This document shows, in pieces, positions 18,985-34,466 of a stretch of DNA of 62,811 nt. The notes beneath the pieces were generated by a model. That model saw only the letters and a program-made list of their open reading frames with translations. It ran no database searches and was not told the DNA's origin. The DNA lies in contig JASBSU010000027.1 in NCBI GenBank assembly GCA_030148725.1, forward strand, positions 1 to 62,811, given 5' to 3'. Both the position numbers and the translations under genes were made by a program. Positions within the stretch are counted from its first letter, which is position 1; each line of letters opens with the position of its first letter. This DNA comes from Hyphomicrobium sp. Lineage in GTDB: Bacteria > Pseudomonadota > Alphaproteobacteria > Rhizobiales > Hyphomicrobiaceae.

Positions 18985-19008
18985 TCGCGGACGTTGACCT
19001 AGTCTTAA

Positions 19009-19047
19009 GAACGGCCGCGGGTGGAGCTGACCCCCGCGGCCGTTTCT
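19009..19047 (+). terminator. Rho-independent terminator
   Basis: AACGGCCGCGGG pairs with CCCGCGGCCGTT around a loop of about ten bases, followed by TTTCTTAT. It ends the small exported protein transcript before the tRNA-Thr promoter region. Confidence 0.85.
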
Positions 19048-19133
19048 TATTTCGGCGGCGGTGCTTCCGGGCGATAGGAGCCTGAGATGCCAACATTGGC
19101 GGCCTAAGGGCTGAGCGGGCGGCGTTTTGAGCC

Positions 19134-19162
19134 TTGCCAGACGCCCGCGCGGCGATTACACC
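19134..19162 (+). promoter_or_regulatory. Probable original tRNA-Thr promoter
   Basis: TTGCCA, 17 bases, TACACC. The start point would lie about 40 bases before the tRNA 5' end. Since the island split the tRNA, transcription from here would now run through the 5' half into the island. The -10 match is poor, so this is tentative. Confidence 0.35.
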
Positions 19163-19209
19163 GGCAGCGCCCTTGTGACCCCGTTGCAGCGGGGCCGGGC
19201 GATCCAATC

Positions 19210-19247
<38 letters not shown>

Positions 19248-19769
19248 CCAAGGCGCGCCGAGCAAAATCAATAACTTAGGCTGTCTTGGTGCCGTGAACG
19301 CCCGTAGAACGGGGCGTAAACTCGCGGCATTTCTCAGTGGATACCGCTCAGAATGGTGTCCTTTCAAGGGAGTGGTCTACTTTAAAAATAGAAACAATAG
19401 GCATTGCCCGGTCATGACCGCGCGCAATAAATGCGAATGCTTTCTTGTCGCCTTTGTAGGCACTTTTACGGTTGTAATTGAGCGCTCGTTAGCTATCTTT
19501 AGTGATGGCGTTCCGCGCAAGCGGTTGGCCAGGGGAAGCGGTCCGCCGGCCGCGGGAGTAGAGCCGGCAAAGGGACACCGCCAACGCTTCCTCGTTCGTG
19601 GTCTCGGGATCACCCGCGGACTGACAGCAGGCCAGCCTGAAAAGGAAATGGCCCCGCCTCAGTCCACAGCCGGCAAGCTGATGGGTGAAGTCGGGGCCGT
19701 TATCGCGGTGTCCCGAATATACGTCCGCATGGCGTCCGGTTCAACCGCTTGAGTAGAGGAGGTTGAACT
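19248..19769. other. Island 1 left-end non-coding region
   Basis: No convincing gene in these 522 bases; the first part is clearly richer in A and T than its surroundings. It contains a site at 19340-19353 that matches one at the island's right end, and an inverted near-copy of the attachment core at 19365-19379. A GAGGAGG ribosome site at the end serves the helicase gene. Confidence 0.55.
19340..19379. repeat. Possible integrase arm-type site and inverted att-like sequence
   Basis: GATACCGCTCAGAA at 19340-19353 matches GATACCACTCAGAA at 34144-34157 in 13 of 14 positions. At 19365-19379 the reverse complement of the sequence reads TAGACCACTCCCTTG, matching the att core TAGAGCACTCCCTTG in 14 of 15 bases. 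Sites of this kind near both ends are expected for a tyrosine integrase. Confidence 0.45.
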
Positions 19770-21815
19770 ATGAAACGCACGGTCAAGACCGCATCCCCAG
19801 AAGACGAATTGTTCGACAAGATGGACGCCGCCCGGCAATCACATATGCCGGCGTTGCTCGTGGCCGCCGAGTGTATCGAGAACCTTCGCGATCCTGAACT
19901 GAACGCGGCCACGAGGCGTGAGCGCGCCCTCTACTATCTGGCCCAAGTCGACACGAAAGGGGCCGTGGTCGACGACCTTCTGAAACAGATCGCCGCTGCC
20001 GCGGGAGATCATTGGACAGCGCGGAACGAGACCAAGTGGCGAAGCCATCTCCTAGCGAAGCAACGGGAGATTGCCGCTGCCAGCGCCGGAGGCGGCGACG
20101 CGGCGGATTGTGAAGCGCCCGCGGATGGCGCCGACTGCGAAGTGATCTACGAACACTGGCCGGCGAGCGAACGTCGCCGCCTGCTGAAAGAACGGATCAA
20201 GGCGACCAACGACAAGCGCCCACTCCTCTTTAGTCGCACCGATGGGCTCGTGCGCATTCGCCCCGCGGTCGACGTCGACCTGGGACGCAAGTTTGAGGAC
20301 TTAGCGGGACGTGAACAGTGGGCGTTTGAGATCAACAAGCGCGTCACCTTCAAGCAACGGAACTTGGAGAAAGGCACCGAGAAAGAACTAGGCGCGCCGG
20401 AGTGGGCGATAACGCACATGAAGGGCGGCGCTGCCGCGGAAGTGCTGCCCTACCTGGAGCGCGTCGTAAACGTGCCCGTCTTCGCGCCGGACGGAACGCT
20501 GATGACCGCTCCTGGCTATCATCCGGCCGCGCACATCTACCTGGACCCGCCGAAGGGCATGACGTTCAGACCGCTGCCCGATGTCATCACCGAGGAGCAT
20601 GTTCGTTGGGCGTTCTTGCAGCTTTATGAGGCGCTGCGCGACTTCCCGTTCTCTGACGCCTTCGACGGTGACGAACCGCTGCCCGTGCGGAGCGGCGACG
20701 CGGACGCCGACGGTAAGCCGTTGCCGACATACGAACGTGGCCAGTCTTCACGCGCGCACGTGTACGCAATGCTTCTCCAGCCGTTCGTTCGGTCCATGAT
20801 CGTCGGACCGTGTCCGGCGTACTTCATCGACAAGAGCGCGCCGGGCACGGGCGCGGGGTTGCTGATGGACGTGCTGACCTACATCCTCACGGGGCAGTCG
20901 GCTCCAGTGCAGACGCTGCAAAAGAGTGCGCATTCGGAGGAGGAGTTCTCCAAGCGCGTGACAGCGATGCTACGCGGCGGCTCCGACGTCGTGTTCTTCG
21001 ACAACATCAACTTTGCCGTAGATAGCGGCACGCTCGCTGCGGCCCTGACCGCCGGCAACTGGACGGGGCGTATCCTAGGCAAGAGCGAGGACGTGACGCT
21101 CCCCATCCGCTGTGTCTGGACGTTCGCCGGCAACAACGTGGAGTTCTCGCGCGAGCTGTTGCGTCGCCTCGTTCCGATCCGCATGGACGCGGCGACGCCT
21201 GACCCTGCGAACGACCGGCCTATGAGCTTCTACGTCCATTACCCTTTGAACGAGTGGCTGTTGGCCCACCGCGTCGAGTTGATCCACGCCTGCCATATCC
21301 TGGTGGCCAACTGGGTGCATCGCGGGCGCGTGCCCTACACCGATGGCGCGCTCCAGTCGTTCTCGTCCTGGTCGAACGTCATGGGCGGCATCTTGCGGGA
21401 CGCGAGTATCCCTGGCTTCCTTGCGAGCCTTGCCGCCTTCAACGACGTGCGCGGCGAGGAGGCACACGGCACCGAGGTTGTCATGGAAGCTGTGTACCGC
21501 GAGTTCAACATAGCGCCCTGGACCGTTCTGGAGTGCGGTAGGGCGCTCAGCGGCAATGCGCTGACCGGCAGCCCGCTCGACGATGTTGGGCTCGATACCT
21601 CGGACGAGAGGCGCCTCGCTACCTCGTTCGGTCGATGGCTACGAAAGAACGCCGACGGCCGTACGTTCAAGCTTGGGGAGCGACACTACAAGGTCGCGAA
21701 GGTCCGGGGCGACACTGCGAGCCGTTGGCGCCTCATGCCCGTCCAGAGCGCCGCCGGCTCGCCGGTCGATGACAACGCTGGGGCCGTCTCGGACATCGGG
21801 CATCCTGCCAACTGA
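19770..21815 (+). CDS. Replication-type helicase/ATPase with altered Walker A
   Basis: A 681-residue protein resembling the primase/helicase proteins of integrative elements and plasmids. The ATPase core runs from about residue 340: SAPGTGAGLLMDVLTYI is the P-loop, but the essential lysine is A362; then DVVFFDNI (Walker B-like), ALTAGNWTGRILGKSEDVTLP and the sensor-1-like WTFAGNNVEFSRELLRRLVPIRMD. The N-terminal 300 residues are unassigned. The start is fixed by GAGGAGG. It lies directly upstream of the repeat-rich origin-like region, which supports a replication role. Confidence 0.65.
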   Translation: MKRTVKTASPEDELFDKMDAARQSHMPALLVAAECIENLRDPELNAATRRERALYYLAQVDTKGAVVDDLLKQIAAAAGDHWTARNETKWRSHLLAKQREIAAASAGGGDAADCEAPADGADCEVIYEHWPASERRRLLKERIKATNDKRPLLFSRTDGLVRIRPAVDVDLGRKFEDLAGREQWAFEINKRVTFKQRNLEKGTEKELGAPEWAITHMKGGAAAEVLPYLERVVNVPVFAPDGTLMTAPGYHPAAHIYLDPPKGMTFRPLPDVITEEHVRWAFLQLYEALRDFPFSDAFDGDEPLPVRSGDADADGKPLPTYERGQSSRAHVYAMLLQPFVRSMIVGPCPAYFIDKSAPGTGAGLLMDVLTYILTGQSAPVQTLQKSAHSEEEFSKRVTAMLRGGSDVVFFDNINFAVDSGTLAAALTAGNWTGRILGKSEDVTLPIRCVWTFAGNNVEFSRELLRRLVPIRMDAATPDPANDRPMSFYVHYPLNEWLLAHRVELIHACHILVANWVHRGRVPYTDGALQSFSSWSNVMGGILRDASIPGFLASLAAFNDVRGEEAHGTEVVMEAVYREFNIAPWTVLECGRALSGNALTGSPLDDVGLDTSDERRLATSFGRWLRKNADGRTFKLGERHYKVAKVRGDTASRWRLMPVQSAAGSPVDDNAGAVSDIGHPAN

Positions 21816-21842
21816 TGCGCACGTGGTTGCGGGGCCGGGGCG

Positions 21843-22052
21843 ACCGTAGGCACCGTAGGCTACCGTAGGGCAGCTACCAGCTCCCATAGGGGAGTGGCCT
21901 TACACACACGCAGATTACAGCGCCAAACAGGTCCTACATGTAGGTTCGTGTCCTACATGTAGGACCTGTCACCTCTGTTTCCCGATGTGTGTGTGATGTC
22001 AGTTTTCTACTGACCAAGGGAGTACCCCTACGGTCCCTACGGTCCCTACGGT
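21843..22052. repeat. Symmetric iteron and inverted-repeat array (candidate origin)
   Basis: ACCGTAGG occurs at 21843, 21852 and 21862. The reverse complement, CCCTACGGT, occurs as three perfect tandem 9-bp units at 22026-22052. Between them lies a perfect 18-bp inverted repeat (21927-21944 and 21952-21969, loop TTCGTGT), each arm of which itself contains the 12-bp palindrome CCTACATGTAGG. Confidence 0.85.
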
Positions 22053-22143
22053 CTAGGCGATGGACTATCTGGTGGTTTGTAGGGTGGACGCTATCGCCAG
22101 GAAGCCCGATGTCACTTAGATGGTCATCGGACCGTGTGTATGG

Positions 22144-22181
22144 TTAACGCGCGTTAATAATTGCGGTTAGCCTAGGCTAAC
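22144..22181. repeat. Two perfect palindromes in a TA-rich patch
   Basis: TTAACGCGCGTTAA (22144-22157) and GTTAGCCTAGGCTAAC (22166-22181) are perfect dyads 8 bases apart. They lie about 90 bases beyond the last 9-bp repeat and may be operators or part of the origin's unwinding region. Confidence 0.6.
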
Positions 22182-22592
22182 TTTCCAATCTGCGTGTAGT
22201 TAACGCCCCCGGCCGGAGGCCCTACAACCCGTGGCGGCTCCGCCACACGCCGCCGGCTCGCCAGTCCGACATCGGGTTCGCCGCGCCCCGGTGTCCCCCG
22301 TTCGCGTCGTCCGCAGCCGTCGCGCCTACCCCTTCTGCCCCGATCTGCGCCGCGGCGCGGGTGTGGTGGCTCGCTCCCGCCTGCGTGTCCGAGGGCGCCC
22401 CTTGTTTCAGGCCGTCAGTGAGCGCTGGTGGGCTGCGGGAAGCGAGCGCCCTGGCAGCATGAACGACTGGTCGACGATGGTAACGCCCGCTTAACCCTCG
22501 CGCTCGATAGGCCACCCGCGAACTTGGCCTTCTAGTATTCTACCAAGATCGAAAGCCCGTGTTTTCAGCGTCTCGGAAGGGAACTTTGCAAA

Positions 22593-23222
22593 ATGGAAGA
22601 CCTGGCACCCGTCCTCCCGGTCCCGGCGGCGAAGAAAAGCCAAGTTCAACGCTACGGCCAGAAGGCGCCCTTCACGGTGGACGACGTGGCCGCGATCCGG
22701 CGCCGGCTACCGCTCGGGACGCGGGATCGCGCGCTATTCGAGCTGTCGATTTGTACTGCACTACGTGCGTCGGACCTTCTGGGGCTGACGGTCGGGGCGG
22801 TCCAGGACGCTGCCGGCGCGATCCGCCCGCGCATCACGGTCGGCCAGCGCAAGACACGTAAGGGCGTCACCGTGAACCTGTCGCCCGCTGCTGAGGCGCT
22901 GACCGCCTATCTTGCCGCCGAGCCGCTACCGTCGACGGCGCCTCTGTTCGCTGCTCATCGTCGCCGGGTTCGCAAGCCGATGACGGTTGAGGCGTTCCGC
23001 CAGCTCGTGAAGCGCTGGGCTGACATCGCCGGGCATCGGGACGTCTCACGCTACGCGGCGCATTCAACCCGCCGCACGCTGGCCGCCAGCATATACGCCC
23101 GCAAAAAGGACGTTGCGTCGGTGCGCCATGTTCTAGGCCACAGCTCGACGGCAGCGACGGCGCACTACCTGGGTATAGACACCGACGCCGCGCTCGACGT
23201 TGCGCTCGAATGCGCGCTGTGA
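22593..23222 (+). CDS. Short tyrosine recombinase (catalytic domain only)
   Basis: A 209-residue site-specific recombinase with the full catalytic set: R58 in TALRASDLLGL, a lysine in RKTRKG, H157 and R160 in HSTRRTLA, H183 in LGHSSTAATAHYL and the nucleophile Y192. It has almost no N-terminal DNA-binding domain, unlike integrases of about 400 residues. Being next to the origin-like region and separate from the integrase at the right end, it may resolve multimers of the excised element or act on another site. Confidence 0.85.
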   Translation: MEDLAPVLPVPAAKKSQVQRYGQKAPFTVDDVAAIRRRLPLGTRDRALFELSICTALRASDLLGLTVGAVQDAAGAIRPRITVGQRKTRKGVTVNLSPAAEALTAYLAAEPLPSTAPLFAAHRRRVRKPMTVEAFRQLVKRWADIAGHRDVSRYAAHSTRRTLAASIYARKKDVASVRHVLGHSSTAATAHYLGIDTDAALDVALECAL

Positions 23223-23815
23223 CGCGTCGAGCCGCAAGCGCGATCACGTCCCCGCGCTGATCTATTCACACGGCGCACAGCCGCACGCACAGAGCGACGC
23301 TACCGTGCTCGCTGTGTCAGCGCATGCGCATCTGCGGACATAACCGCGTGCGATGGCGGATGCACCACACGCCCACGCCCATGCTCACTTGTGCATGCGC
23401 ACGCGCCCACGCTCGCTCCCGTAGACCGCGAGCCGTCAACCTTTGCGTTTCAAAGTCGTCGCGCTTCGTTTCTCAAATCAAAACTGTTGGTGGCTGCGTC
23501 GTCGCGATCCCGCATCAATCGTGCTGGCGCGCTCGCTCATGGGCAACACGTTGGCGGGTGTGATCCATCGTCGGCGCAGAACGGCCGCGCGCTCTCAAGC
23601 TAGACGGCGCGGCGTCGCAATAGTATCGGCGAAAAAGTGATGCCGTGGGGACCCACGTGCCACGGCGGGTGTACCCCACCCGCAACGCGCATCCAGTGTG
23701 AGGCGCACGCAGAATTTAATTACGTGAGTACATCGGGCGAGCACGTCAACTGCAATGTGCAATATAAAATGCAATTTAATCCGCCGTCGGATCGTCGACT
23801 GCCATGTTCGACGAT
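23223..23815. other. 593-bp region without clear genes
   Basis: Open frames here look unlike real proteins. The last 120 bases are AT-rich and contain three TGCAAT repeats at 23751, 23758 and 23770, possibly a regulatory site. Confidence 0.45.
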
Positions 23816-24079
23816 CTAGCATCCATTACGGGACAGCGTCTTGGTGCGGGCGGCCAGCCAATTCAGTAGCTCCTGGAGCACTAGGCTGCGCTCGCTTTCA
23901 TCAGCTCGACACGCGGCCTTCATCCGGCGGACTTCGCGCGCCATTGCCTCACGCTCGGAGTTGATCAGATCCGCGACAGGAATAGTCCATGCTTGCGGCG
24001 GCGCTGCCTCTGGCACCGCGTGGTGCGCATCAATCCAAGCTCGGCGAGCGTTCGCGACGTCAGTAGGCTCGTTGGACAG
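23816..24079 (-). CDS. Small helical protein, possible CTG start
   Basis: An 87-residue product reading SNEPTDVANARRAWIDAHHAVPEA at the start, with a charged helical stretch SEREAMAREVRRMKAACRADESERSLVLQELLNWLAARTKT. No ATG, GTG or TTG fits the N-terminal region; a GGAGG ribosome site lies 9 bases before a CTG codon. The alternative GTG at 24016 would lose the first 21 residues and has no ribosome site. Family unknown. Confidence 0.5.
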   Translation of the reverse strand: MSNEPTDVANARRAWIDAHHAVPEAAPPQAWTIPVADLINSEREAMAREVRRMKAACRADESERSLVLQELLNWLAARTKTLSRNGC

Positions 24080-24182
24080 TACGGCGATCCTCCATATCCA
24101 TCACTGTGCGGACAGCTTGGAGGCATCGTGGCGACATTGGCAATCGGGTCCGAGGCGAAATGAAGGGATAACCGGCCCGATG

Positions 24183-24344
24183 TCAGTGAGCCCTTCCACG
24201 CTCGGCCACGCGGCGCTCTACGCATTGGTCGCAATCGCACCCCGCCGCGAGTTCGTCGGCGAGTTCTTCCAGTTCGTCAACCTCGCCGGTAATGCGCACT
24301 TCGCGCGCTAGCAACGGATCGCGCAACGTCTTTATCTCGCTCAT
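24183..24344 (-). CDS. 53-residue protein with Cys cluster
   Basis: A short gene with a strong GGAGG site 7 bases upstream of the ATG. The product starts MSEIKTLRDPLLAREVRITG, continues with a very acidic helix (EVDELEELADELA) and then the GCDCDQC cluster, which could bind a metal. Codon choice and the ribosome site support a real gene. Family unknown. Confidence 0.6.
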   Translation of the reverse strand: MSEIKTLRDPLLAREVRITGEVDELEELADELAAGCDCDQCVERRVAERGRAH

Positions 24345-24356
24345 TCCCTCGCCTCC

Positions 24357-24394
24357 AAAAAGATGCGGCGCCAGTACGTCGACCCTGGCGCCGC
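24357..24394 (-). terminator. Rho-independent terminator, minus strand
   Basis: GCGGCGCCA and TGGCGCCGC form a 9-bp stem, followed on the minus strand by ATCTTTTT. It lies between two small genes read in the same direction, so the downstream one needs read-through or its own start of transcription. Confidence 0.7.
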
Positions 24395-24426
24395 TTGGTG
24401 GTTACTCCGTCTCATGGTGGTGTGAC

Positions 24427-24645
24427 CTACTCGGCGCAATCGCAGCTCTCGCCCCAGCCCGAAATAAATTCGATCAACCTCCTGGCGTTGGGCGCGTCTT
24501 TGTCGTTGTCGTCAGTGATAAGCATGTAAGTCACTACCGTCCATAACACGATGTCTTTGATGAGCATGTGGTTGCGCGCACATGCCTTAACTGCCGCGTC
24601 TATCTCCTGTGTCGGTGTTGGCCGTCTCAGCTGTTTAGTGATCAT
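24427..24645 (-). CDS. Small protein of unknown function
   Basis: A 72-residue product (MITKQLRRPTPTQEIDAAVKACARNH...) with a hydrophobic middle (IVLWTVVTYMLIT) and an acidic C-terminus ending SCDCAE. The ATG is preferred over a TTG 12 bases earlier because GGAG is correctly spaced for it. It heads the small minus-strand cluster and is divergent from the large island 1 operon. Confidence 0.55.
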   Translation of the reverse strand: MITKQLRRPTPTQEIDAAVKACARNHMLIKDIVLWTVVTYMLITDDNDKDAPNARRLIEFISGWGESCDCAE

Positions 24646-25004
24646 TGGTTTCTCCAAATAGGCTTATCTGCCGCTCGCATCATGCGCTGGCTGCGCGATG
24701 CAATGCCGAAAGCGTGCCAAAGGCAAATCGTTTCTCTATCTTTGTTTGGCCCGAACACGAATAAAAACCAGCGTCAAGTTAACCGACGAAACGCGGTCTT
24801 GACCGAAATTGCTACTCGTCGCCGCATGGCGTCTCGCGCCCGGTTTATATGGCGTTCTCGCGCCTCAATTCACCTTCATGGCGATGGCTAAAAACATTGC
24901 GAAAGCGTAATGTCGGGCGATGGAATGTTTTTCTCCGAGCCCGATTATTTTATGTTTACATAGCCTCCTAATTGGTTGGTCGATTTTTTTCGGAGGCGAA
25001 TTGG
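24646..25004. other. Divergent promoter region of island 1
   Basis: About 360 bases richer in A and T than the flanks, between the small minus-strand genes and the operon beginning at 25005. No protein-like frame. It ends with GGAGG 8 bases before the operon's first ATG. Confidence 0.5.
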
Positions 25005-25712
25005 ATGTCATATGAAATCCCACGTGGGCGTCCGCCCCTCTCGGGCCACGAGCGACGCGGCCCGCCGCGTTGTGTGAGGTTCCCAAGCGTCATTGATGCG
25101 GCGCTTGGTGAGATTGCTGCCGAGCGCGGAACGAGCGTGGGCATTGAAGCTGTGCGCGCTCTGGAAGCTGCTGTTGCCGACCACCGCGCCGCCGGCCGGG
25201 AGCCCTTGTCAGCGCCGCTAAAGACGCACGTCGACAAAGTCGAAGCTCGCTATTGGGAAGCACGCCGGCTGGAGTTGGCCGACGCATTGCCGGTGATCCA
25301 TGCCGCCGTTGCGCGACGCATGCCTGAGCCTCTGGAGCCCGGCCACGCCGATGATCTCGCGCTGTATCTCGCGGGAGCGCATCAGGGGGCGGTCGCCGCG
25401 ACGGCGCTCCTGATCAATCTCGACGATGGAGATACGGGGTTGAGCGCGTGGCAAGAGATCGTCCGCGCGGCCGTCGAAGACGCGCCCGATCTGTTCGTAT
25501 CCGCTCCGTTGGTCCAGGACCTTGTGCGCTTCCTATCGCGCGGTGCCGAGCGCGACACACACCAGCAGATCGCGGCGCGTGTCGACTACGCGGGCGTCCG
25601 CGGCCGTCGCCTCATGCTCCAGGCTGAGCTGCGCAAGCTGCGCCTCGCCGGGGAGCCGTGGCCGGCCATTACTCCGTCCATCGGCGGTACGTCATCTCGG
25701 ATAGGGGAGTGA
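25005..25712 (+). CDS. Unknown protein with possible ribbon-helix-helix N-terminus; operon gene 1
   Basis: A 235-residue protein. Residues 1-60 read like a ribbon-helix-helix DNA-binding unit: a basic RGRPPLSGHERRGPPRCVRFP strand followed by DAALGEIAAERGTSVGIEAVRALEAAVA. The rest is helical and unassigned. GGAGG precedes the ATG. As first gene of a tightly packed operon with a DNA-binding-like domain it could be the operon's own regulator; that is inference. Confidence 0.6.
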   Translation: MSYEIPRGRPPLSGHERRGPPRCVRFPSVIDAALGEIAAERGTSVGIEAVRALEAAVADHRAAGREPLSAPLKTHVDKVEARYWEARRLELADALPVIHAAVARRMPEPLEPGHADDLALYLAGAHQGAVAATALLINLDDGDTGLSAWQEIVRAAVEDAPDLFVSAPLVQDLVRFLSRGAERDTHQQIAARVDYAGVRGRRLMLQAELRKLRLAGEPWPAITPSIGGTSSRIGE

Positions 25713-25717
25713 CGCCG

Positions 25718-26194
25718 ATGCTCACTGCCGAAAGCCGCTACGCGATAACAGACGAATTATACGACGCCTTCGAGCTGCGTGCTGCCAAATCGCTTGCGCC
25801 CTTCGGAGTACATGACGACGACCATGTGTCGGACATTGCCGCCGCGTTATTAGCTGAACATCCGCGTTGGTTGACGGTCGGCCTCACAGAGCTACGGCGC
25901 GTCGTCGCTGAGTTTAGAGAAGTCGACCCGGCTATTTTCGAGGCGGCGCCTGCGACGCGCGCCGAGCTTGAGCAACTAATTTTTGCCGGCATGAAGCACG
26001 TCATTCTCGACGCTGAGAACCGTCGAGCCGCAGCTCGCTCTGCCGCGCGCAAGGCGGACCTGCAAGGCGAAACCGGCCGCCGTCGCGCGGCCTATCCTTA
26101 TCGGCGTCAAGCGGCGAACGTCGCGCTTGTTGAAGTCCGTAAGCGCGCCGCCGTCGTAAATGACAGGGAGGCACGCGATGCAGCACGTCGATGA
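25718..26194 (+). CDS. Unknown protein, operon gene 2
   Basis: A 158-residue, mostly helical protein (MLTAESRYAITDELYDAFELRAAKSLAPFG...), with an acidic N-terminal half and a very basic C-terminal quarter rich in arginine, which may contact nucleic acid. GGGGAG lies upstream of the ATG, and the gene starts 5 bases after gene 1 ends. No family recognised. Confidence 0.6.
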   Translation: MLTAESRYAITDELYDAFELRAAKSLAPFGVHDDDHVSDIAAALLAEHPRWLTVGLTELRRVVAEFREVDPAIFEAAPATRAELEQLIFAGMKHVILDAENRRAAARSAARKADLQGETGRRRAAYPYRRQAANVALVEVRKRAAVVNDREARDAARR

Positions 26195-26420
26195 GACCAA
26201 TCGCACCCGGTTGCACCGGATCGCGCGCGCCATTTTTGACCAGCGCCGCCGCGAGGCGCCACACGTGGATTTCGCGACGTTCTATGGCGAGGCCGTGGAA
26301 GTCGCCGCGCATGCCGGCATCTCGCTCAAGTCGCGCGAGTTCGAGCCGAACCTTAGTCATGCCGCGCGCGCTGCGTGGCGAATTCTGACGGAACTGCCAG
26401 TAGAGGAGGCAAACCAATGA
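26178..26420 (+). CDS. Unknown small protein, operon gene 3
   Basis: An 80-residue helical protein (MQHVDETNRTRLHRIARAIFDQRRREAPHVDFATFYGEAVEVAAHAG...). It has a GGGAGG ribosome site and starts 17 bases before gene 2 stops, so translation is coupled. No family recognised. Confidence 0.6.
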   Translation: MQHVDETNRTRLHRIARAIFDQRRREAPHVDFATFYGEAVEVAAHAGISLKSREFEPNLSHAARAAWRILTELPVEEANQ

Positions 26421-27187
26421 TGACGCTTGCACGGGCACTCGCCCAAATCGACACCGCGTACCCAAGCGCGCGAGCCGCGCAACGGACGGCTCTAACGGCC
26501 GCAGTCAACTCACTGTTGGCGAGCCCGACTGTAGCAAAAGCCTGGGAGGGGATAGAGGCGCAGCTGCTTGATTACCTTGTGCGAGAGGAGCGGCTGGACA
26601 TGTCGGCGGTCCCAACTGCCAACGATGTCACGCGAGCTGCGATTGCGGCCTTGGAGAAACGCGAAGGGCGTCCGTCGTACCCCTCCGAGCGCTTGGCCTT
26701 GGCTCAAGAGATTGAAGGGCTCGACGAACCAGCGCTGATCGCGAAGGCGCACGAGGTCGGCAGCGCTAAGGCCGACGACGCGCGCGCCGAGCCAAAGCAG
26801 GCGCAGTCATCTGCATTTCCGCGCACGCCGCCGAGCGCTTGGACCGACGCCGACATCGCCGAGATTTTTATGGCCAAGACGGGGCGCTCGCTTGCTGAAT
26901 GGCGGGCGATCCCGCCGTCGCAGCGGCAGGAGATAGCGTCCATGTATCGGCGAGGGGCGGAAGCCGGCGAAACCGATCACGTGAAGGGGCTGCGAGCGAT
27001 CCCCGCCGACAAGCGCAGCCCGGCTGCCCGCATGACTTTAGAACGAGTTGACCGAGGAGCGGCGCAACGTCAACGCAGTGGCGTCGCAGCCGACAGCGCG
27101 GAGATGCGAACCATTCGCGCCAAGGAAGCTCAAGGGATTGCGCTTTCGCCCGCTGAGCGCATGACGGCCGCACGAGCGCAAAAGTAA
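26417..27187 (+). CDS. Unknown protein, operon gene 4
   Basis: A 256-residue protein beginning at an ATGATG that overlaps the stop of gene 3 (ATGA), with GGAGG upstream. A helical N-terminal 90 residues, a linker, then WTDADIAEIFMAKTGRSLAEWRAIPPSQRQEIASMYRRG and a C-terminal part that ends in an LSPAERMTAARAQK-type tail repeated in looser form (RSPAARMTLERVDRG). No family recognised. Confidence 0.6.
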   Translation: MMTLARALAQIDTAYPSARAAQRTALTAAVNSLLASPTVAKAWEGIEAQLLDYLVREERLDMSAVPTANDVTRAAIAALEKREGRPSYPSERLALAQEIEGLDEPALIAKAHEVGSAKADDARAEPKQAQSSAFPRTPPSAWTDADIAEIFMAKTGRSLAEWRAIPPSQRQEIASMYRRGAEAGETDHVKGLRAIPADKRSPAARMTLERVDRGAAQRQRSGVAADSAEMRTIRAKEAQGIALSPAERMTAARAQK

Positions 27188-27260
27188 CCCCAGTCCCCCG
27201 CGGCGCGCCAACACTCCAGCGCGTCGGACAGCGGCGGCGCGGCTTCCATCGCATCCTCCT

Positions 27261-28304
27261 GTGGAACGCCGCGCCGTCACTGCCACGAATGAAAGGCTCG
27301 ACGCCATCATGCCACGCTACATTACACAGGATGACCTGCTCGTGACGCTGCGGGCCGCTGCTAGAAATTACGGTTGTCTCGGCGTCGACGAGATGGACGC
27401 GGCCGAAGTGTACCGTGTGCTCGCTCAATGCAGCGCGCGCGAGGAGCAAGCCTCCGAAGTGAAGCGCGAGGCGCGTAAGGAATGGCCGCGGGTCGTCCAA
27501 GCCGCTTTCGACCCTGCCGCGCCCGAGCATCAGGCAGCGCGCGCTGCACTGGCGTTTCGCGGCGGCTTCCGAACGTGGGCGGATGTCAAAGCTGCGCTCA
27601 CTACACCGATGACGCCGCCCCCTCAGCAGATTTCGGAAGCCGACGTGTGGCCCGAGACGCTTCTCGAAGGTGTGTCATGGTCGGTGCTCGACGCTGCCGC
27701 CGTACTGCACGCCGCGCGAGACCGTACCGACCATGCACCGGAGCCTAGCTACCGTCGCGGCGTAGAGCATCGCAAAGGTGGTGACACCCGGCATCGACGT
27801 ATCGACGCCTATTTTGCCGAGCTTTCGACAAAAGATGTTGGCGGCCCCTCTTACTTTCAAATCGGCAGGGAGCTGGGGCAGATGGGTGACGGTGAAAAGT
27901 CTGCGATGTGGGCGCACGCCTGTTGCCGCCAATATGCGTTCGTGCGCGCGCTGCGTCGCGAGCCGGCACTCCCCGCGCTGCTGTTGCACCATGACGAAAA
28001 CGGAGCCGTAATCCCCGAACAGGCCGTCGTCGACCGATGGGTCGCGCTGATACGCGCCATGTGCTGGCGCGTCGACACCGTCGGACCGGCGGCGGCGCGC
28101 GCATACGCTGCCGGCGAGTTGGACTTGGTCGCGATCCTCGCGGCTCACGAGTTACAGCAGACGCTACCCGAAAAACAGCAGCGCATTGTCAATCTGATGC
28201 GCGCCCTGTCGGATGCGCGCGAGTACGGCGGCCACAGCATAGATGAAACGTGGTTCGCTAAGACGTTGGCGCTCGCGCTGGCGTGTGAGGCAGTAGCCGC
28301 ATGA
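27261..28304 (+). CDS. Unknown protein sharing a C-terminal domain with the next gene; operon gene 5
   Basis: A 347-residue product if read from a GTG, or 331 from the ATG at 27309 (MPRYITQDDLLV), which may be the better start; neither has a clear ribosome site. The C-terminal region CCRQYAFVRALRREPALPALLL...VDRWVALIRAMCWRVDTVGPAAARAYAAGELDLVAI aligns well with the C-terminal region of the following gene, so the two contain a duplicated domain. Function unknown. Confidence 0.6.
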   Translation: MERRAVTATNERLDAIMPRYITQDDLLVTLRAAARNYGCLGVDEMDAAEVYRVLAQCSAREEQASEVKREARKEWPRVVQAAFDPAAPEHQAARAALAFRGGFRTWADVKAALTTPMTPPPQQISEADVWPETLLEGVSWSVLDAAAVLHAARDRTDHAPEPSYRRGVEHRKGGDTRHRRIDAYFAELSTKDVGGPSYFQIGRELGQMGDGEKSAMWAHACCRQYAFVRALRREPALPALLLHHDENGAVIPEQAVVDRWVALIRAMCWRVDTVGPAAARAYAAGELDLVAILAAHELQQTLPEKQQRIVNLMRALSDAREYGGHSIDETWFAKTLALALACEAVAA

Positions 28305-29503
28305 TGATCCGCGTACGGTCGCCCCATAATAGGCGTATATATTCTGTCCCGCCAGCGACGGCCGCCGCCTTGTCCGCAAGCGGCACACCTGATGCTCAGG
28401 GTGTTCGCAGGCTTTGGGAAATCGTCGATGAAAGAAAGGCCGCTGATAACGTCGTCAGTGCCCCGACGGCATCATCGCAGTCAGGGAAGCGCGCAAGCGC
28501 TAGTCGTAACGCACCGGTCGACGATCCCCCGAGCCGACGGCCAGCGCCACGCGATGCCGACCGCGAGGCATTGAAGGCGTTCATCGCCGCGCGGCTCGAA
28601 TACTTCCGCGCGTTCGATACGTTCCCGCCCTACGACCACGGCGCTGCGTGGATGCGGGAGCAAGTTCGCGCCGAGAAACGTGGCGTGCTTCCCGACCCTG
28701 AGCGCACAGAAGTTGAGTGGCGCGATGCGCAGGAGCGCATGCCCGCCGAGGCGGCGTTCTATAAGTCGTATTCAGACGGAACCCCTGCTGATTTTGAGAC
28801 GCTGGTGGAAATCACCACGCCGATCAGTGTCAAACAGCAACCTCGCGGCGATGCGCTGACAGGTCCCGATGCTGAGGCCGCCCGTGATCTACTTGGTGGG
28901 GAAATACGTTGGACCCGCGAGCAAGCGCTGCGATCCCTCGTTCCTGCTGCGAAGCAACTAGCCTACCGTGGCGCGGGCAGGAAGCCTGATTACTCGTATA
29001 CGGCTGATACCCGGCTAGATGACCGCCACGCGCTACTGCAACGGCACCTACCGGCAATCGAGCGCGGCGACCTTAGTCTGTCCGCGATAAAGGGGATGCT
29101 AGGTCTCAGCTCGACGTCCAAAGTCGTGGCGCTCCAGCGCCACTACGCTTTCTTGTCCGCGCTGGCGTCCGAACCGTTCCCCGCGATCTTGCTCGCCACA
29201 CGTGGCCCGCGCGGCGTCGTCACGCGTGAGCTGACATCAGAGCAGGTGGACTTATGGGTCGCAATAGTTCGCAACCTTGTGGCCGCCGTTGACATCGTGT
29301 TGCCTGCGGCCGTCGCTGAAATGGAACAGGGCGCCATCAGCGCCGATCAGATCGCTCGGCTCCCGTTGCCGGCTACGCCGTGCCGACACGATCCAATCCT
29401 AATGAACCTCACCCTCGCCAGGGCCGGCTACTCGGCGGCACGTGCTGCGGAAGGCGCCTTAGAGCAGATCGTCGAGCTAGTCATGCAGGGCAGCGGCGTA
29501 TGA
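28301..29503 (+). CDS. Unknown protein sharing a C-terminal domain with the previous gene; operon gene 6
   Basis: A 400-residue protein starting at ATGATG overlapping the stop of gene 5. An N-terminal disordered Ser/Arg/Pro region of about 60 residues is followed by helical sequence, then a domain like that of gene 5: LQRHYAFLSALASEPFPAILL...VDLWVAIVRNLVAAVDIVLPAAVAEMEQGAISADQI. No known catalytic motif was seen. Confidence 0.6.
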   Translation: MMIRVRSPHNRRIYSVPPATAAALSASGTPDAQGVRRLWEIVDERKAADNVVSAPTASSQSGKRASASRNAPVDDPPSRRPAPRDADREALKAFIAARLEYFRAFDTFPPYDHGAAWMREQVRAEKRGVLPDPERTEVEWRDAQERMPAEAAFYKSYSDGTPADFETLVEITTPISVKQQPRGDALTGPDAEAARDLLGGEIRWTREQALRSLVPAAKQLAYRGAGRKPDYSYTADTRLDDRHALLQRHLPAIERGDLSLSAIKGMLGLSSTSKVVALQRHYAFLSALASEPFPAILLATRGPRGVVTRELTSEQVDLWVAIVRNLVAAVDIVLPAAVAEMEQGAISADQIARLPLPATPCRHDPILMNLTLARAGYSAARAAEGALEQIVELVMQGSGV

Positions 29504-29760
29504 AGCACGCGCCGCCCGTGATCCTTGCACCGCTTCCGCTCGTCGTCCGCGCATCCATGATCGCCGAAGCGCTGGCCGACGCGCAACTCGCAGCCCGCCT
29601 GCATGATCGCAAGGCCGAGTGCAGCTTTTTTCTTCGCATCGCGGAACTACTCGGCGCCAAGCACGCCACGACCTTGCCCGACCTACTGCAAGCAGGACGC
29701 GACTTTGTCGCCGCGGTACTCACTTCACGACGCAAACGTAATTCACGAGGAGGATCGTAA
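29500..29760 (+). CDS. Unknown small protein, operon gene 7
   Basis: An 86-residue protein (MKHAPPVILAPLPLVVRASMIAEALADAQLAARLHDRKAE...) with an ATGA overlap with gene 6. It is mostly helical with a basic C-terminus. Its end carries the AGGAGG ribosome site for gene 8. No family recognised. Confidence 0.6.
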   Translation: MKHAPPVILAPLPLVVRASMIAEALADAQLAARLHDRKAECSFFLRIAELLGAKHATTLPDLLQAGRDFVAAVLTSRRKRNSRGGS

Positions 29761-29761
29761 A

Positions 29762-30067
29762 ATGTCAGATGAGGACCGAACATCACCAATAGCGCGACGG
29801 CGGGAGGCCGTAGTCGCTTATTTCCTATGCGGTCTAGACCGTTCCGTTGTCGCCGCGCTCGTGCGGCTGACCGAGACCGAGGTCAACGACATTCTCGCCA
29901 AGTACGGTAGCGTCGACGATGTCGGCCGTTACGTGATTTCGGAAGCGGTGCGCACGGAGCTTCGACTTCCGTGCTATGTTCCCCGCCAACGCAAGTCTGG
30001 CGGCACGATGACCGTCAATACGACTTACCTCAACCGGCTACACGCCCAAACGGAGACAAACGTATGA
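29762..30067 (+). CDS. Unknown small protein with HTH-like segment, operon gene 8
   Basis: A 101-residue protein. The stretch ARRREAVVAYFLCGLDRSVVAALVRLTETEVNDILAKYG resembles a helix-turn-helix of sigma-factor or homeodomain-like type (a helical pair with a turn, then a recognition-helix-like segment). AGGAGG precedes the ATG, which is one base after gene 7 stops. DNA binding is inferred only. Confidence 0.58.
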   Translation: MSDEDRTSPIARRREAVVAYFLCGLDRSVVAALVRLTETEVNDILAKYGSVDDVGRYVISEAVRTELRLPCYVPRQRKSGGTMTVNTTYLNRLHAQTETNV

Positions 30068-30282
30068 GCCCACGACTTCACCGCGCGGCATCGCGCCTTC
30101 CGCTGAGCATGCTCAACGCCCGGCGGGCGGGTTCGTCGAAGCATGTCAAAACTGAGTTGTTGACGCCGATGGAAATTCTGAGGCGACAGATGCGCGCGGC
30201 GCTGGAGCGCAACGCTTCCGATGGCGAACTGCGCAGCTTGGCGCTGGCTACCCTGTACGCGACGGAAAGAGACGCGGCTTGA
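30064..30282 (+). CDS. Unknown small basic protein, operon gene 9
   Basis: A 72-residue, strongly basic protein (MSPRLHRAASRLPLSMLNARRAGSSKHVK...) overlapping gene 8 by ATGA. It is the last gene of the coupled operon and is followed by the convergent TcmP gene. No family recognised. Confidence 0.58.
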   Translation: MSPRLHRAASRLPLSMLNARRAGSSKHVKTELLTPMEILRRQMRAALERNASDGELRSLALATLYATERDAA

Positions 30283-30340
30283 ACGAGAAGCCACGCAGCG
30301 GCTGGAGTGGACCGTGCGGCCGTCGTGGCCCTACGCGGTG

Positions 30341-31495
30341 CTAAGGGTCGGGTCTCAGGACGATGATCGTATCATCATGCGGCTTACGATTGCCGCCGCC
30401 CCACGTGTCCGCTAACACGCCTTCCTTCGCTAGCTGCTTACAGATGTCCTTCACGTTGGTGACGCGAACGGCGTAGGCTTCGAGCACGAGTGGCCACAGC
30501 TTGTCGAAACGCATTCGGCCGCAGGCATTTTTCAGTTCAGCCAAAATCATCTCAGCAGCGTAGCGCTTGTTCACCTCGATAGTCTCAGCGACTACAGCCT
30601 CCTGCACATCAGCATTGAAGCCGGCAAAGAACACAGCCTGCTGCGTTTGCTCCTCGCGCTTCCTATCTTTGGCATCGGCGCGGTTCCGCGCGTGCTTTCT
30701 CGCAGTTGGAAGTTCGGTATCGCGGAATGCCTCTAGGCCGTCGCGTGATTTCGTAGCGTAAACTAGGTAGAAGTGTGGACGATCCTTGGTCGACCGATAA
30801 ATGGGGGCCGAGACAACGTGCTTGAAGCCGCAGACGTTCTTGAGGCGCTCCCTGAGCAGCTTAAGTGCCGCAAGGCCGGGCGGCATAGTTGGGTCCAGCG
30901 CTTCACGCCAACCTTCGCCAAGCATCGGATTAAAAGACGCGACGGTAGACGCGGTAGCCATGGCCGTCGCACGATTGATGTGGTCGTACATGAAGTTGAT
31001 GAGTAGCTCGACCTTATGCCGTCGGCAGACTGGCGCCAGCTTCTCCGGCGAGTAGCCTTTCCAACCTTTCGGGTCGATGAAGATGAAGGGGAATGATGTT
31101 CCTATGAACTTGTCGAATACCGGAATGGCATCTTCAAACTGGCCATTGAACGTAACGATCTCGAAGCCATCCTCAGGTTTGTTATATGTCTTGACGGCCT
31201 CCGTAAGTCTCGCGAACGCCTCGGGGTTTTTCTCGACGAGAAAACACTTCACGCTGCGGCGACGACCTCTCCCATCCACAGTCTTCGCCTGAGCATCCTT
31301 CAAGACCTCAATGGCGATCATGAAGGAGCTATCGGCGAAGGTCTCGGTCCTGCACTCCCAGGGACCGGAGAACCCATCGACGTAGGTGATGTCGCTGAAG
31401 GTGAGGACCTTGAACGCCAGAGCTTGGAGGTACCGCTTGAGGAGGTAGTGTTTAGCCTCGGTCTGCTCGCGACCAAGATAGGGGTTGTCGGACAC
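30341..31495 (-). CDS. tcmP: Three-Cys-motif partner protein TcmP
   Basis: A 384-residue protein of the TcmP family, which occurs next to three-cysteine-motif proteins such as the DUF5131 protein here. It has methyltransferase-like landmarks: TYVDGFSGPWE (residues 38-47) resembling motif I, FLVEKNPEAF with the acidic end of strand 2, and FIFIDPKGWKG (138-147) resembling motif IV. The GTG start (AAGGGA upstream) is preferred to a TTG 18 bases earlier; it overlaps the end of the upstream gene by 44 bases. The biological role of the pair is not established to my knowledge. Confidence 0.8.
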   Translation of the reverse strand: MSDNPYLGREQTEAKHYLLKRYLQALAFKVLTFSDITYVDGFSGPWECRTETFADSSFMIAIEVLKDAQAKTVDGRGRRRSVKCFLVEKNPEAFARLTEAVKTYNKPEDGFEIVTFNGQFEDAIPVFDKFIGTSFPFIFIDPKGWKGYSPEKLAPVCRRHKVELLINFMYDHINRATAMATASTVASFNPMLGEGWREALDPTMPPGLAALKLLRERLKNVCGFKHVVSAPIYRSTKDRPHFYLVYATKSRDGLEAFRDTELPTARKHARNRADAKDRKREEQTQQAVFFAGFNADVQEAVVAETIEVNKRYAAEMILAELKNACGRMRFDKLWPLVLEAYAVRVTNVKDICKQLAKEGVLADTWGGGNRKPHDDTIIVLRPDP

Positions 31496-32252
31496 GCTTC
31501 GTCCCTTTTGCAATATGCTTTTGCGTACGGTCCCCTAGCGGATACTCGTTCCACTCGCGGCCGTGGAGTTCGCGCCCGCCCGACTTCGGACGCACGCCTC
31601 CCCATTGCTTGAAAAAGAATGCCACCCTGAAGGCGTGGCACTGATCTCGAATTTCCGTTGCCCAATCTTCACGCATGGGGCGGCAGTGGGGGCCGCTTTC
31701 GCCACCAACGATTACCCAAGCAATTCCCGACAAGTCGATCTTGCCAACTGGACCTAGCAGGGGCTCGAAGGATACGAACTTCACGCTGGCGTGCGCGGTC
31801 TTAAGATGCTTGAGCCGCACGGTATTCTTCGCATCCTCAATCGAAACGCCGATCCAAATATGCGAGGGCGCCAGTCCATGCGGATAACGCTTGCGCAGGT
31901 ACCGAACCATTAGCGAGCTGCGTTTCGTGAGCACCTGAAATGTGTGCCAACTCGCAGCTTCCATTGTATCGAACACGGCGTCGACGAAGGAGGCCGGTAC
32001 TTCCTTGTGAAATAGGTCGCTCATTGAATTGACGAAGATGCGCTTCGGGTCCCGCCACTGAAGCGGCTGCTTAAGTCGTGCCGGTCGAAGCGTGAGGTCA
32101 AAGCCATTTTCGAACGCGTGGCCGGGCGTACCTCGAAAGCGTTCGGAGAAGCGCTCTGCGTAACAGAAGTCGCAGCCGCCAGTGATCTTGGTGCAGCCCG
32201 TGACCGGGTTCCAAGTCGCGTCGGTCCACTCGATCTGTGTCGTTTCTCCCAT
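31452..32252 (-). CDS. DUF5131 (phage Gp37/Gp68-like) three-Cys-motif protein
   Basis: A 266-residue protein opening with IEWTDATWNPVTGCTKITGGCDFCYAERF; C20, C27 and C30 form the three-Cys motif, suggestive of an iron-sulfur cluster as in radical-SAM-like enzymes. Other family marks are FVNSMSDLFHKEVP, FQVLTKRS, WIGVSIED, VSFEPLLGPV and VIVGGESGPHCRPM. It is the upstream partner of tcmP in a two-gene unit. A role in nucleic-acid modification is an inference. Confidence 0.87.
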   Translation of the reverse strand: MGETTQIEWTDATWNPVTGCTKITGGCDFCYAERFSERFRGTPGHAFENGFDLTLRPARLKQPLQWRDPKRIFVNSMSDLFHKEVPASFVDAVFDTMEAASWHTFQVLTKRSSLMVRYLRKRYPHGLAPSHIWIGVSIEDAKNTVRLKHLKTAHASVKFVSFEPLLGPVGKIDLSGIAWVIVGGESGPHCRPMREDWATEIRDQCHAFRVAFFFKQWGGVRPKSGGRELHGREWNEYPLGDRTQKHIAKGTKRVRQPLSWSRADRG

Positions 32253-32357
32253 GCAACGGGCATAGAACGAACTGCGAACATCAGCAAGTAAAAATGCTCG
32301 GTGATGCGCGCAACTATCGGAGTATAACTTCGTCGTTCTCTCAAAGAAGGACACGTC

Positions 32358-32762
32358 ATGGAGATCGAAAAATTTGAAGCGAGTGTCGGCAATGACGACT
32401 GGGTGGGCTCCGTCGCCGCAGACTACGACGTAGATGCCCCAAATCGCCTGCAAGACTTGCTTCGTGAGCAAAAGCGCATCAGCCAGAACGATTTCGTGAT
32501 AGGCGTGCGGATGTGGTTGGGCGACAATCTAAGTCCGGGCTATCGCACGCCTACAGTCTACGCGTTAGTAGTTTCCGTGCCCGCGGGCACTGGAGCGAAG
32601 CAGTGGCTCAACGAACAGGATGATCCGATACCTGTCCGAAAGATCGAAGTTTCCCTGACGGTGCAGCAGCTGCTCGATTTTTTCCTTCGCTTTGAACTTT
32701 TGCTCTTTAAGAACCATCTGGATTTGGACGAGCGGCGATATAGGTTCGAGCCCGAGGAGTAG
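32358..32762 (+). CDS. Unknown protein divergent from the TcmP/DUF5131 pair
   Basis: A 134-residue acidic protein (MEIEKFEASVGNDDWVGSVAADYDVD...) with a well-placed AAGGA ribosome site. The pattern is beta-rich in the middle and helical at the C-terminus (QQLLDFFLRFELLLFKNHLDLDERRY). It is divergent from the DUF5131 gene over 105 bases and may be a third member of that cassette. Family unknown. Confidence 0.62.
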   Translation: MEIEKFEASVGNDDWVGSVAADYDVDAPNRLQDLLREQKRISQNDFVIGVRMWLGDNLSPGYRTPTVYALVVSVPAGTGAKQWLNEQDDPIPVRKIEVSLTVQQLLDFFLRFELLLFKNHLDLDERRYRFEPEE

Positions 32763-32852
32763 CCTGCCTCACCGAGTGCCGGGCCTGAGGACATCCGCCT
32801 TTCGCGTCGAAGGGCTTGCGCACTCGGGGCCGGCGGGGCCGCTCCACCATCA

Positions 32853-34076
32853 TCAGAAGCTAAGCACCTCGCCGGCCGTGTCGAGATGCGCGGGCGACAA
32901 GTGCCCGTAGTGCCGCTCGATAGTCTTGGCGTCCGTTCCCACCATTTTCGCGACCGCCTGATACGACTGACCGCTCTGGACTAGCAGGGAGCAGCAAGTG
33001 TGCTTGAGCAGGTGGACGTGGCGTGCGAGCCCGTCCAGCCCGGCGCGCCTGTAGGACGGCTTTAGGTCAATCGTCAGCAGCCGTTTGCCGCGATGCTGGA
33101 TCACATGCGGGCAGTCAGGGTACCGCTCCTGCCACGCACGCAATAGCGCGATATAGAGGCGGCCGTTGGTGCGCGAGACGCTGCCCGTGGGGCGGCGCTT
33201 GTTGCCGCGTCCACGGCCCATGTTGAAGCGCAGCGGTTCGCGATCATCGCGAAGCCTGAAATCAAAACTCGCGACCTTATCGGGATCGAAAACGGCCAAC
33301 GTGTCGCTCACGGCAGCGGCAATCTCCGCATCATCGTCCGATGGCGGGGCGCCGCCCGGCCAGTACACATCCGACCATTGCAATTCGAGGATGGCGGACA
33401 TCCGCGCACCAGTCGCGAGCGCAATCAGGACGAACAGTTCCGTATAGGGTTCGGCGCAACCGTCGAGCAGCCGTCGCACTTGGTCGCTCGTGAGGTAGGC
33501 GTGGACAGCGTACGTCGGTTCGTCGGGGATATGGACCTCCACACCGTCGAGCCCGTTCATGCCGTTGCGGCGCGCCCAATTGATCGCGGCGCGCATGACA
33601 GCGAGTTCCTTACAGGCCGTCGCGTCGCTCACGTGTTTGACGGAGCCGGCGCTCTTACCCTTCGGCTTTCGCGTGGCGGCGGCATACGGGGCGCTGGCGT
33701 TTGCCTGTCGAGTGCGCCACTTGCGGTAGGCGGCCCACACGGCGTCACTGCGAAGTTGCTGCGGCTGCAAGCCGGCGAAGTAGCCCTTGAGCTTCTGGAC
33801 GGCGTAGAATGTCGCGTTCTTTCCGCCCTCGCACTTCGCGCGCTCGAACTGGTCCAGTAGCTCGCCAATCGTGTAGGCGGTGCCCGTGGCTGGCCTCGGG
33901 GCGATGATGTCGGCCGCTATTGCCTTCATCTTTTGTTCGGCCTCGGCGCGGTCCCGTGTGCCGGTGGATCGTTTTTTTGTGTACCCCTTCGCGGGGTCCG
34001 TGAAGCTGACGTGCCAGAGCCCTGTGGCATCGGAAACGAGCCGCGGGACAGGAATAGGGTTCTTTTGGCGCGCCAT
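32853..34076 (-). CDS. Tyrosine-type integrase of island 1
   Basis: A 407-residue site-specific integrase that should catalyse insertion at tRNA-Thr. Residues 1-60 are an Arm-type domain, then a SAM-like core-binding domain, then the catalytic domain with ATGARMSAILELQW (Arg I), HLLKHT (H355, with K358 where Arg is usual) and the nucleophile Y390 in IERHYGHL. GGAGG lies before the chosen ATG; an upstream start would add 25 residues. It lies 138 bases from the right attachment site and reads into the island. Confidence 0.9.
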   Translation of the reverse strand: MARQKNPIPVPRLVSDATGLWHVSFTDPAKGYTKKRSTGTRDRAEAEQKMKAIAADIIAPRPATGTAYTIGELLDQFERAKCEGGKNATFYAVQKLKGYFAGLQPQQLRSDAVWAAYRKWRTRQANASAPYAAATRKPKGKSAGSVKHVSDATACKELAVMRAAINWARRNGMNGLDGVEVHIPDEPTYAVHAYLTSDQVRRLLDGCAEPYTELFVLIALATGARMSAILELQWSDVYWPGGAPPSDDDAEIAAAVSDTLAVFDPDKVASFDFRLRDDREPLRFNMGRGRGNKRRPTGSVSRTNGRLYIALLRAWQERYPDCPHVIQHRGKRLLTIDLKPSYRRAGLDGLARHVHLLKHTCCSLLVQSGQSYQAVAKMVGTDAKTIERHYGHLSPAHLDTAGEVLSF

Positions 34077-34143
34077 GTTGCGGACCTCCGGCTGTTGGGG
34101 TACATCGGCGGCCCGAGTGTGCCATGTTCTCGGCAATCTGAGC

Positions 34144-34157
34144 GATACCACTCAGAA
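34144..34157. repeat. Right-end copy of candidate arm-type site
   Basis: GATACCACTCAGAA, within the imperfect dyad TCTGAG-N8-CTCAGA, matches the left-end site at 19340-19353. It lies between the integrase start and the attachment core. Confidence 0.42.
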
Positions 34158-34214
34158 ATCATGGCAAACAGGGACTGGTCATAACCTAAAATTCCCTGTA
34201 GTTTCAATGTGTTA

Positions 34215-34289
<75 letters not shown>

Positions 34290-34466
34290 TTCCCCAAAAG
34301 ACGTGCGTGTCCCAGTCCACAATGCCCGTTGTGCGCGAAGAAGCGTGGCAGCGCCGTCTTTGCATGGGTTGATGTGCGCCTAGGCACCTGTTCTGCACAG
34401 GTAAATCACCGCCGGCCGTTGAGCGAGTCAGAGCGCTTTTTTAAGCAATCCTGACGGCGGGGGCTG

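Follow-up and report, generated by a model that had tools for sequence, protein, structure and literature searches.

A mirrored iteron array directly behind an SF3/D5-type helicase gene as a probable replication origin of a 15-kb integrative element in Hyphomicrobium sp.

The 62,811-nucleotide stretch of Hyphomicrobium sp. DNA analysed in this study (hereafter the window) holds a 210-bp region, at positions 21843-22052, in which short repeats are arranged around a hairpin. The question raised by this locus is what such a region does. An initial annotation described three repeats at 9-10 bp spacing, a perfect 18-bp inverted repeat with a 7-base loop and three perfect tandem copies of the reverse-complement unit, and proposed that they form an undescribed replication origin behind a helicase-type gene in an integrated element, or else a partition or terminator site. 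The repeats and the hairpin were recovered in full, and the region was resolved into the following features.

21843-21869, forward strand: left iteron array, ACCGTAGG at 21843, 21852 and 21862 (repeat search, shuffles).
21877-21897, no strand assigned: left side hairpin (DNA fold; 21880-21895 in the RNA fold).
21902-21909, forward strand: ACACACAC, mirror partner of 21987-21994 (letters).
21927-21969, no strand assigned: central perfect hairpin with arms of 18 (21927-21944 and 21952-21969), a loop of 7, its centre at 21948 and the palindrome CCTACATGTAGG in each arm (repeat search).
21987-21994, forward strand: GTGTGTGT, mirror partner of 21902-21909 (letters).
21998-22014, no strand assigned: right side hairpin GTCAGT-TTTCT-ACTGAC (DNA and RNA folds, letters).
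22026-22052, reverse strand: right iteron array, CCCTACGGT (inverted copies) at 22026, 22035 and 22044 (repeat search).

The reverse complement of the iteron ACCGTAGG lies at 22027, 22036 and 22045, and these three and the three forward copies are the only six in the window; the steps are 9 and 10 in the left set and 9 and 9 in the right set. The two sets do face each other across the hairpin. Both sets and the hairpin are mirrored about base 21948, and all 210 bp make up one interrupted palindrome. The symmetry goes further than had been described, since ACACACAC and GTGTGTGT mirror each other as a stem and each half of the array carries one side hairpin. Apart from these two sets the window has no exact triple 7-mer array (step 8-13), and apart from the 18-7-18 repeat it has no perfect inverted repeat with arms of at least 14 and a loop of at most 12. 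In 100 dinucleotide shuffles of the window, seven arrays appeared in total and no mirrored pair. A 221-base strand folds into a single imperfect stem, with z-scores of -11.45 as DNA and -10.60 as RNA, and none of 200 shuffles was as strong in either case. The hairpin in the interior of the array is strong in itself (z -8.9, plain shuffles). The array is real and beyond chance.

The interior between the two sets has a GC content of 52%, against 62% for the element, and an AT-rich unwinding stretch was looked for there and was not found. Beyond the array, a perfect 16-bp palindrome, GTTAGCCTAGGCTAAC (22166-22181), lies between GTTAACGC-type repeats at 22141-22208, and the 60-mer with the lowest GC content of 21601-22660 (42%) starts at 22144. 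This palindrome region is possibly an operator, a set of recombinase arm sites or an unwinding stretch.

The letters of the array were then compared with other DNA. The dimer ACCGTAGG-NN-ACCGTAGG, with at most one mismatch, occurs once in the 3.84-Mb assembly, within the array, and the 18-bp hairpin arm has no second copy there. A DNA similarity search of 21816-22592 against plasmids and phages gave no match. In IMG/VR the dimer was found in 29 stretches; these were taken as chance, since each holds just two copies and none had a helicase match in the DNA examined. The initial annotation had looked to conservation in related islands. Such conservation was not seen in the sequence (plasmids, phages, IMG/VR), but it was seen in the architecture, which relatives share. 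The letters thus appear private to the element, and the architecture common to it and its relatives.

The array and the adjoining helicase gene belong to an element of 15 kb that has a tRNA-Thr gene as its insertion site. The integrated element of the initial annotation is borne out by the two copies of a 38-bp tRNA-Thr core and by comparison with empty sites. The main features of the element outside the array are as follows.

19210-19247, forward strand: left copy of the 38-bp attachment core (5' part of tRNA-Thr), identical to 34215-34252.
19770-21815, forward strand: SF3/D5-type helicase gene, 681 aa, the proposed initiator, with a C-terminal domain at about residues 552-660 (PHROGs, AF2 model, Foldseek).
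22593-23222, forward strand: small tyrosine recombinase, 209 aa, mainly the catalytic domain (PF00589, E 6e-19).
32853-34151, reverse strand: integrase of the element, 432 aa, adjoining tRNA-Thr (PF00589, phrog_1).
34215-34289, forward strand: intact tRNA-Thr(GGT) at the right end of the element, with the 38-bp core at 34215-34252 (tRNA and Rfam searches).

In the Rfam scan of 19000-34500, the tRNA alone exceeded the gathering score. The left flank of the element is present as a longer match in five of the seven other genomes of the genus. At those five loci (L155-L159) the left flank is succeeded by an intact tRNA-Thr, either immediately or no more than about 300 bases past the aligned part; neither end of the element has a match in them, and the right flank was unmatched within the locus DNA examined in all five. 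A separate search located the right flank in one of the five genomes (G429), about 2 kb past its tRNA and with contig and strand unchanged; in the other four it is absent, far off or on a different contig. The evidence for the insertion is therefore good at the left end, and in one genome it covers both ends.

The small tyrosine recombinase is the next recognised gene 3' of the array. Further along, a TcmP protein (NCBIfam) and a DUF5131 protein (30341-32471, reverse strand) match the models of the PADLOC candidate defence pair PDC-M30, and this pair is likely to be cargo of the element. In its middle part (24972-30064), the open frames at 24972, 25658, 26375, 27261, 28301 and 29603 matched no family in the libraries scanned. 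Scans of the open frames with Pfam, PHROGs and NCBIfam, in which most frames found no match at all, revealed no packaging, interference or helper-related gene.

The first repeat lies 27 bases behind the stop codon of the 681-aa gene. The protein matched phrog_10537 (unknown function, E 4.1e-77) and phrog_19930 (DNA polymerase/primase, E 2.6e-18) in PHROGs; it gave no match in NCBIfam, and none in Pfam up to E 0.1, a PrimPol domain included. Its AF2 model had a mean pLDDT of 78.9, and the best Foldseek matches of the model were AsfvPrimPol, poxvirus D5, MPXV E5 and the SaPI5 primase-helicase (7ola; E 1.4e-6, TMt 0.39), with low whole-chain TM-scores; the P4 origin-binding domain was absent among the 50 matches listed. 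The PHROGs and Foldseek matches agree with the helicase-type gene of the initial annotation, and we take the modelled protein to be an SF3/D5-type helicase that lacks a fused primase. In the alignment it lacks an N-terminal part that its longer relatives have and that matches DnaG-type primases in profile searches. A profile search of PDB sequences was set aside, its low-E matches being DnaG-type primases that align to this N-terminal part of the relatives. The C-terminal domain would have a winged-helix-like order of elements, to judge from the secondary structure as read by eye; a single-sequence fold of the C-terminal 139 residues (pLDDT 49.4) was too poor for use. The P-loop (residues ~355-364) reads KSAPGTGAGLL, with the Walker-A lysine replaced. 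This lysine is also replaced (GTGAT/GTGAS) in most of ten aligned helicase proteins, among which a lysine just upstream (K355) is near-invariant.

To what extent is the arrangement shared? Relatives of the helicase were found in 26 of 397 genomes of the order and in 14 of 103 of the family, the window's own genome being in both counts. Single-protein scans gave no close relative of the helicase in GTDB contigs or IMG/VR, and none of the small recombinase in IMG/VR. The array survey covered 100 loci, 20 of them bacterial and 80 from IMG/VR (the best 80 of 217 loci there), and 99 matched the query. With "near" defined as -500 to +700 of the helicase stop, exact triple arrays were near the stop in 66 of the 88 loci that had at least 300 bases behind it, and 22 of the 88 had none. 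Over all 99 loci, 116 arrays were near (1.04/kb) against 11 far (0.010/kb), a roughly hundred-fold clustering. The step is 9 bp in 212 of 236 cases, and exactly three exact copies, three being the least counted, make up 112 of the 116 near arrays. One large group of relatives has its arrays inside the last part of the open frame, and others have them behind the gene. Pairs of arrays were inverted in 33 cases and direct in 4.

The mirror symmetry was examined independently of tandem repeats, by taking the strongest self-inverted 260-base stretch of each locus after 10 of 109 entries with fewer than 250 bases behind the stop had been dropped. In 83 of 97 relatives, or 85 of 99 entries if the window and P4 are counted, this stretch fell at -500 to +700 of the stop, an interval that accounts for only about 11% of the stretches scored. 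The other 14 relatives have a stronger inverted repeat elsewhere in the locus. The sample is skewed, with 71 of 98 clustered proteins (window included) in one cluster at 50% identity and many IMG/VR loci that are near kin; with one locus per cluster, window counted, the figures are 53/67 at 90%, 26/39 at 70% and 13/20 at 50% identity.

Individual relatives vary. In the same genus, the G429 locus (L147) carries mirrored TTATGTAGG-like units behind the helicase gene, in letters unlike those of the window; its helicase open frame is seemingly shortened (282 aa) beside the well kept mirrored array. A distant relative (L044) has 40-bp arms and no exact arrays, much like pRN1, and one of the closest relatives (L145) has neither array nor mirror at the 3' end of its helicase gene. 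A central hairpin as a rule of the family was rejected; it is not a general feature, because the interior z-score is below -2 in only 10 of 37 array pairs (window included). The interior has a lower GC content than the locus in only 23 of 37 cases among the relatives.

Which part of the protein might read the repeats was then examined. Exact 9-bp arrays were found at 65 loci, with 23 distinct units. The co-variation test used 47 loci, after removal of near-duplicates, and pairs with an ATPase identity of at least 0.85. Pairs with the same unit exceeded pairs with different units by 0.227 in C-terminal identity and by 0.060 and 0.069 in two parts outside the C-terminal domain. None of 500 shuffles reached the margin by which the C-terminal domain surpasses either of these. 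The other two parts also exceed shuffles of the units, as relatedness alone would produce, so that only the C-terminal excess is informative.

The last beta-hairpin of the C-terminal domain has a histidine with GGGG-type units and RR or QG with GTGA-type units. The iteron class matches these residues in 60 of 60 classified loci (5 of 65 were unclassified), the rule having been derived from the same 60 loci that it describes. On a quickly built tree from the remainder of the protein, unit class and hairpin residues change at least 11 times, and they change jointly in seven of seven supported independent tree pairs (sign test, p 0.016). In further loci the rule held by script in 20 of 26. By eye, the remaining six were four GGGG-type loci with histidine, one GTGA-type locus with QR, and one true exception (L257). 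These 26 came from 36 loci with arrays, 10 distant ones (<42% identity) having been dropped, and many of the 26 are near-identical. A longer relative (L053), which matches in 79 of 398 genomes, served only as a source of such loci, because many of the matches cover just the part of L053 that precedes the helicase. Residue-class data come from L033-L132 and L238-L311. In these relatives the repeat units co-vary, at the level of sequence, with the C-terminal domain of the helicase. The counts cover the relatives; the window's own unit falls in neither class, and its unit and C-terminal domain stand outside the counts.

Most relatives examined have the same architecture where the helicase gene ends, and in them unit and C-terminal domain co-vary; both findings support the reading that the 210-bp region is very probably the replication origin of the 15-kb integrative element, its iterons presumably being bound by the C-terminal domain of the helicase. 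The initial proposal of an origin beside a helicase gene within an integrated element is strongly supported by comparison with relatives. Points that speak against it are the interior that is not AT-rich, the relatives without exact arrays or with a stronger inverted repeat elsewhere, and a helicase that has neither the usual Walker-A lysine nor a fused primase.

It is worth noting that there are other possible interpretations. Tyrosine-recombinase crossover sites consist of inverted arms around a spacer of 6-8 bp, and the 18-7-18 repeat fits this geometry. The repeat could accordingly be the core arms and the 7-bp spacer of a crossover site for the recombinase encoded at 22593-23222, with the iterons as accessory sites, for multimer resolution or rearrangement of the element. 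The recombinase is encoded by the next recognised gene, and of the 108 loci searched, 3 (L147, L145, L039) have a related gene 3' of the helicase. These three, however, have no comparable inverted repeat between the two genes: a search of the intergenic DNA with arms of at least 9 and loops of at most 12 gave an arm of 9 with a loop of 4 at one locus, an arm of 10 with a loop of 0 at another, and none at the third. Arrays and mirrors are also present in many loci in which no relative of the recombinase was found in the DNA examined. The arm has no second copy in the assembly, though a resolution site would need none. We consider a crossover site improbable as the explanation of the region; it is a weaker rival to the origin, or might be a second function.

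The very stable RNA fold right after the stop codon would suit a structure that terminates or attenuates transcription, or stabilises the message, where the helicase transcript ends. The array, however, holds no terminator-like site, the sole one in 21700-22700 being at 22385, and such a structure leaves the three-fold tandem units and the co-variation with the C-terminal domain in relatives unexplained; we regard it as very improbable. Tandem repeats close to a replication gene would also be expected of a partition or incompatibility site (parS-like) or of a replication-fork terminator. The partition or terminator site of the initial annotation did not find support, since a Pfam scan of 18 open frames in the element gave no match to ParA/ParB-like or terminator proteins, and the arrays of relatives lie at the 3' end of the helicase gene. 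There is little to be expected from this explanation, the least probable that we considered. Among the same 18 frames, Pfam gave no fitting rolling-circle protein either.

If the region is the origin, its use might proceed as follows. After excision of the element, the helicase would bind the two inverted sets of three iterons via its C-terminal domain and assemble there, perhaps as two facing hexamers. The hairpin-forming DNA between the assemblies would be melted or extruded, and host enzymes would prime and extend forks in both directions. The private sequence of the unit would keep the replicon from firing the origins of other elements. A bolder and, in our estimate, rather unlikely generalisation is that the mirror is the rule for a class of origins, in which three 9-bp iterons face three others and can pair with them into a stem-loop. 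The iteron origins of P4 and PICIs and the stem-loop origin of pRN1 would then be one architecture, its code would be read by the last beta-hairpin, and the 18-7-18 repeat of the window would also serve the small recombinase as its crossover site, so that initiation and multimer resolution are coupled.

The origin had been called undescribed, but its kind is already known from the iteron origins of PICIs and SaPIs (PMC6092414, PMC7581432), P4 crr and the pRN1 stem-loop (PMC4234260). What is new here is that inverted iterons form one large potential cruciform. The window differs from the known kinds in its private letters, its near-full mirror symmetry with a strong central hairpin, its interior that is not AT-rich, and the lack of a fused primase. 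In the literature searched, with subscription journals mostly outside the search, neither the mirrored 9-bp architecture nor the code of repeats and residues was found described.

According to PMC6092414 and PMC7581432, SaPI and PICI origins lie directly behind rep and are made of iterons, in PICIs as two sets around an AT-rich stretch, and the C-terminal domain of SaPI Rep is said to recognise the iterons. PMC6092414 further describes a rep-ori segment of a Gram-negative PICI that functioned as a replicon. The window resembles these systems in having two short iteron sets directly 3' of an initiator helicase gene in an integrative element. Unlike them, as they are described there, it has an interior that is hairpin-forming, with 52% GC, and two sets that are mutually inverted, and no packaging or helper-related gene was recognised in its element, most scanned frames of which match nothing. 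The putative origin in the cch2-ccrC intergenic region of SCC, which according to PMC7581432 is bound by the C-terminal domain of Cch2, shares with the window the order of helicase, repeats and recombinase gene, but it has three short direct repeats.

P4 crr, as annotated in NC_001609, lies directly behind the alpha gene and has 8-bp repeats at 4314 and 4323 (step 9) and opposite ones at 4366 and 4384 (step 18). The window likewise has short repeats in both orientations, with a 9-bp step, directly behind a helicase gene. P4 differs from the window in the step of 18 of its opposite pair, in further repeats and an ori located elsewhere (9086-9809), in a fused primase, in other letters (GGTGAACA type, type 1 repeats) and in AT-rich surroundings. 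The strongest inverted repeat of P4 is a hairpin other than crr. For the Streptomyces plasmid pWTY27, PMC3583192 describes oppositely oriented repeats of 7-8 bp, GTGGGAAC and TTCCCAC, and a long interrupted inverted repeat that is bound by its RepA. The opposite repeats with a long inverted repeat are like those of the window, a likeness of the origin DNA alone, and the host and the letters differ.

SF3/D5-type helicases drive the replication of phages, satellites and plasmids. Because the letters of the repeats change quickly, sequence is a poor guide to the origins of these helicases. The comparison made here suggests that origins could be found without regard to letters, by looking where the helicase gene ends for the strongest mirrored repeat with a 9-bp step, and it yields a testable hypothesis as to which helicase residues go with which repeat. 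It may also bridge two descriptions that have been set apart. PMC4234260 gives a stem-loop behind the initiator gene as the pRN1 origin, in contrast to the iterons of P4. Like the pRN1 and BIP-1 origins described there, the window has a large stem-loop behind an SF3-helicase initiator gene, and it shares with them that structure is kept and sequence is not. The window differs from pRN1 in that no PrimPol domain was recognised in its protein. The pRN1 origin is described in that paper as lacking iterons, whereas in the window the outer stem is itself built of iterons.
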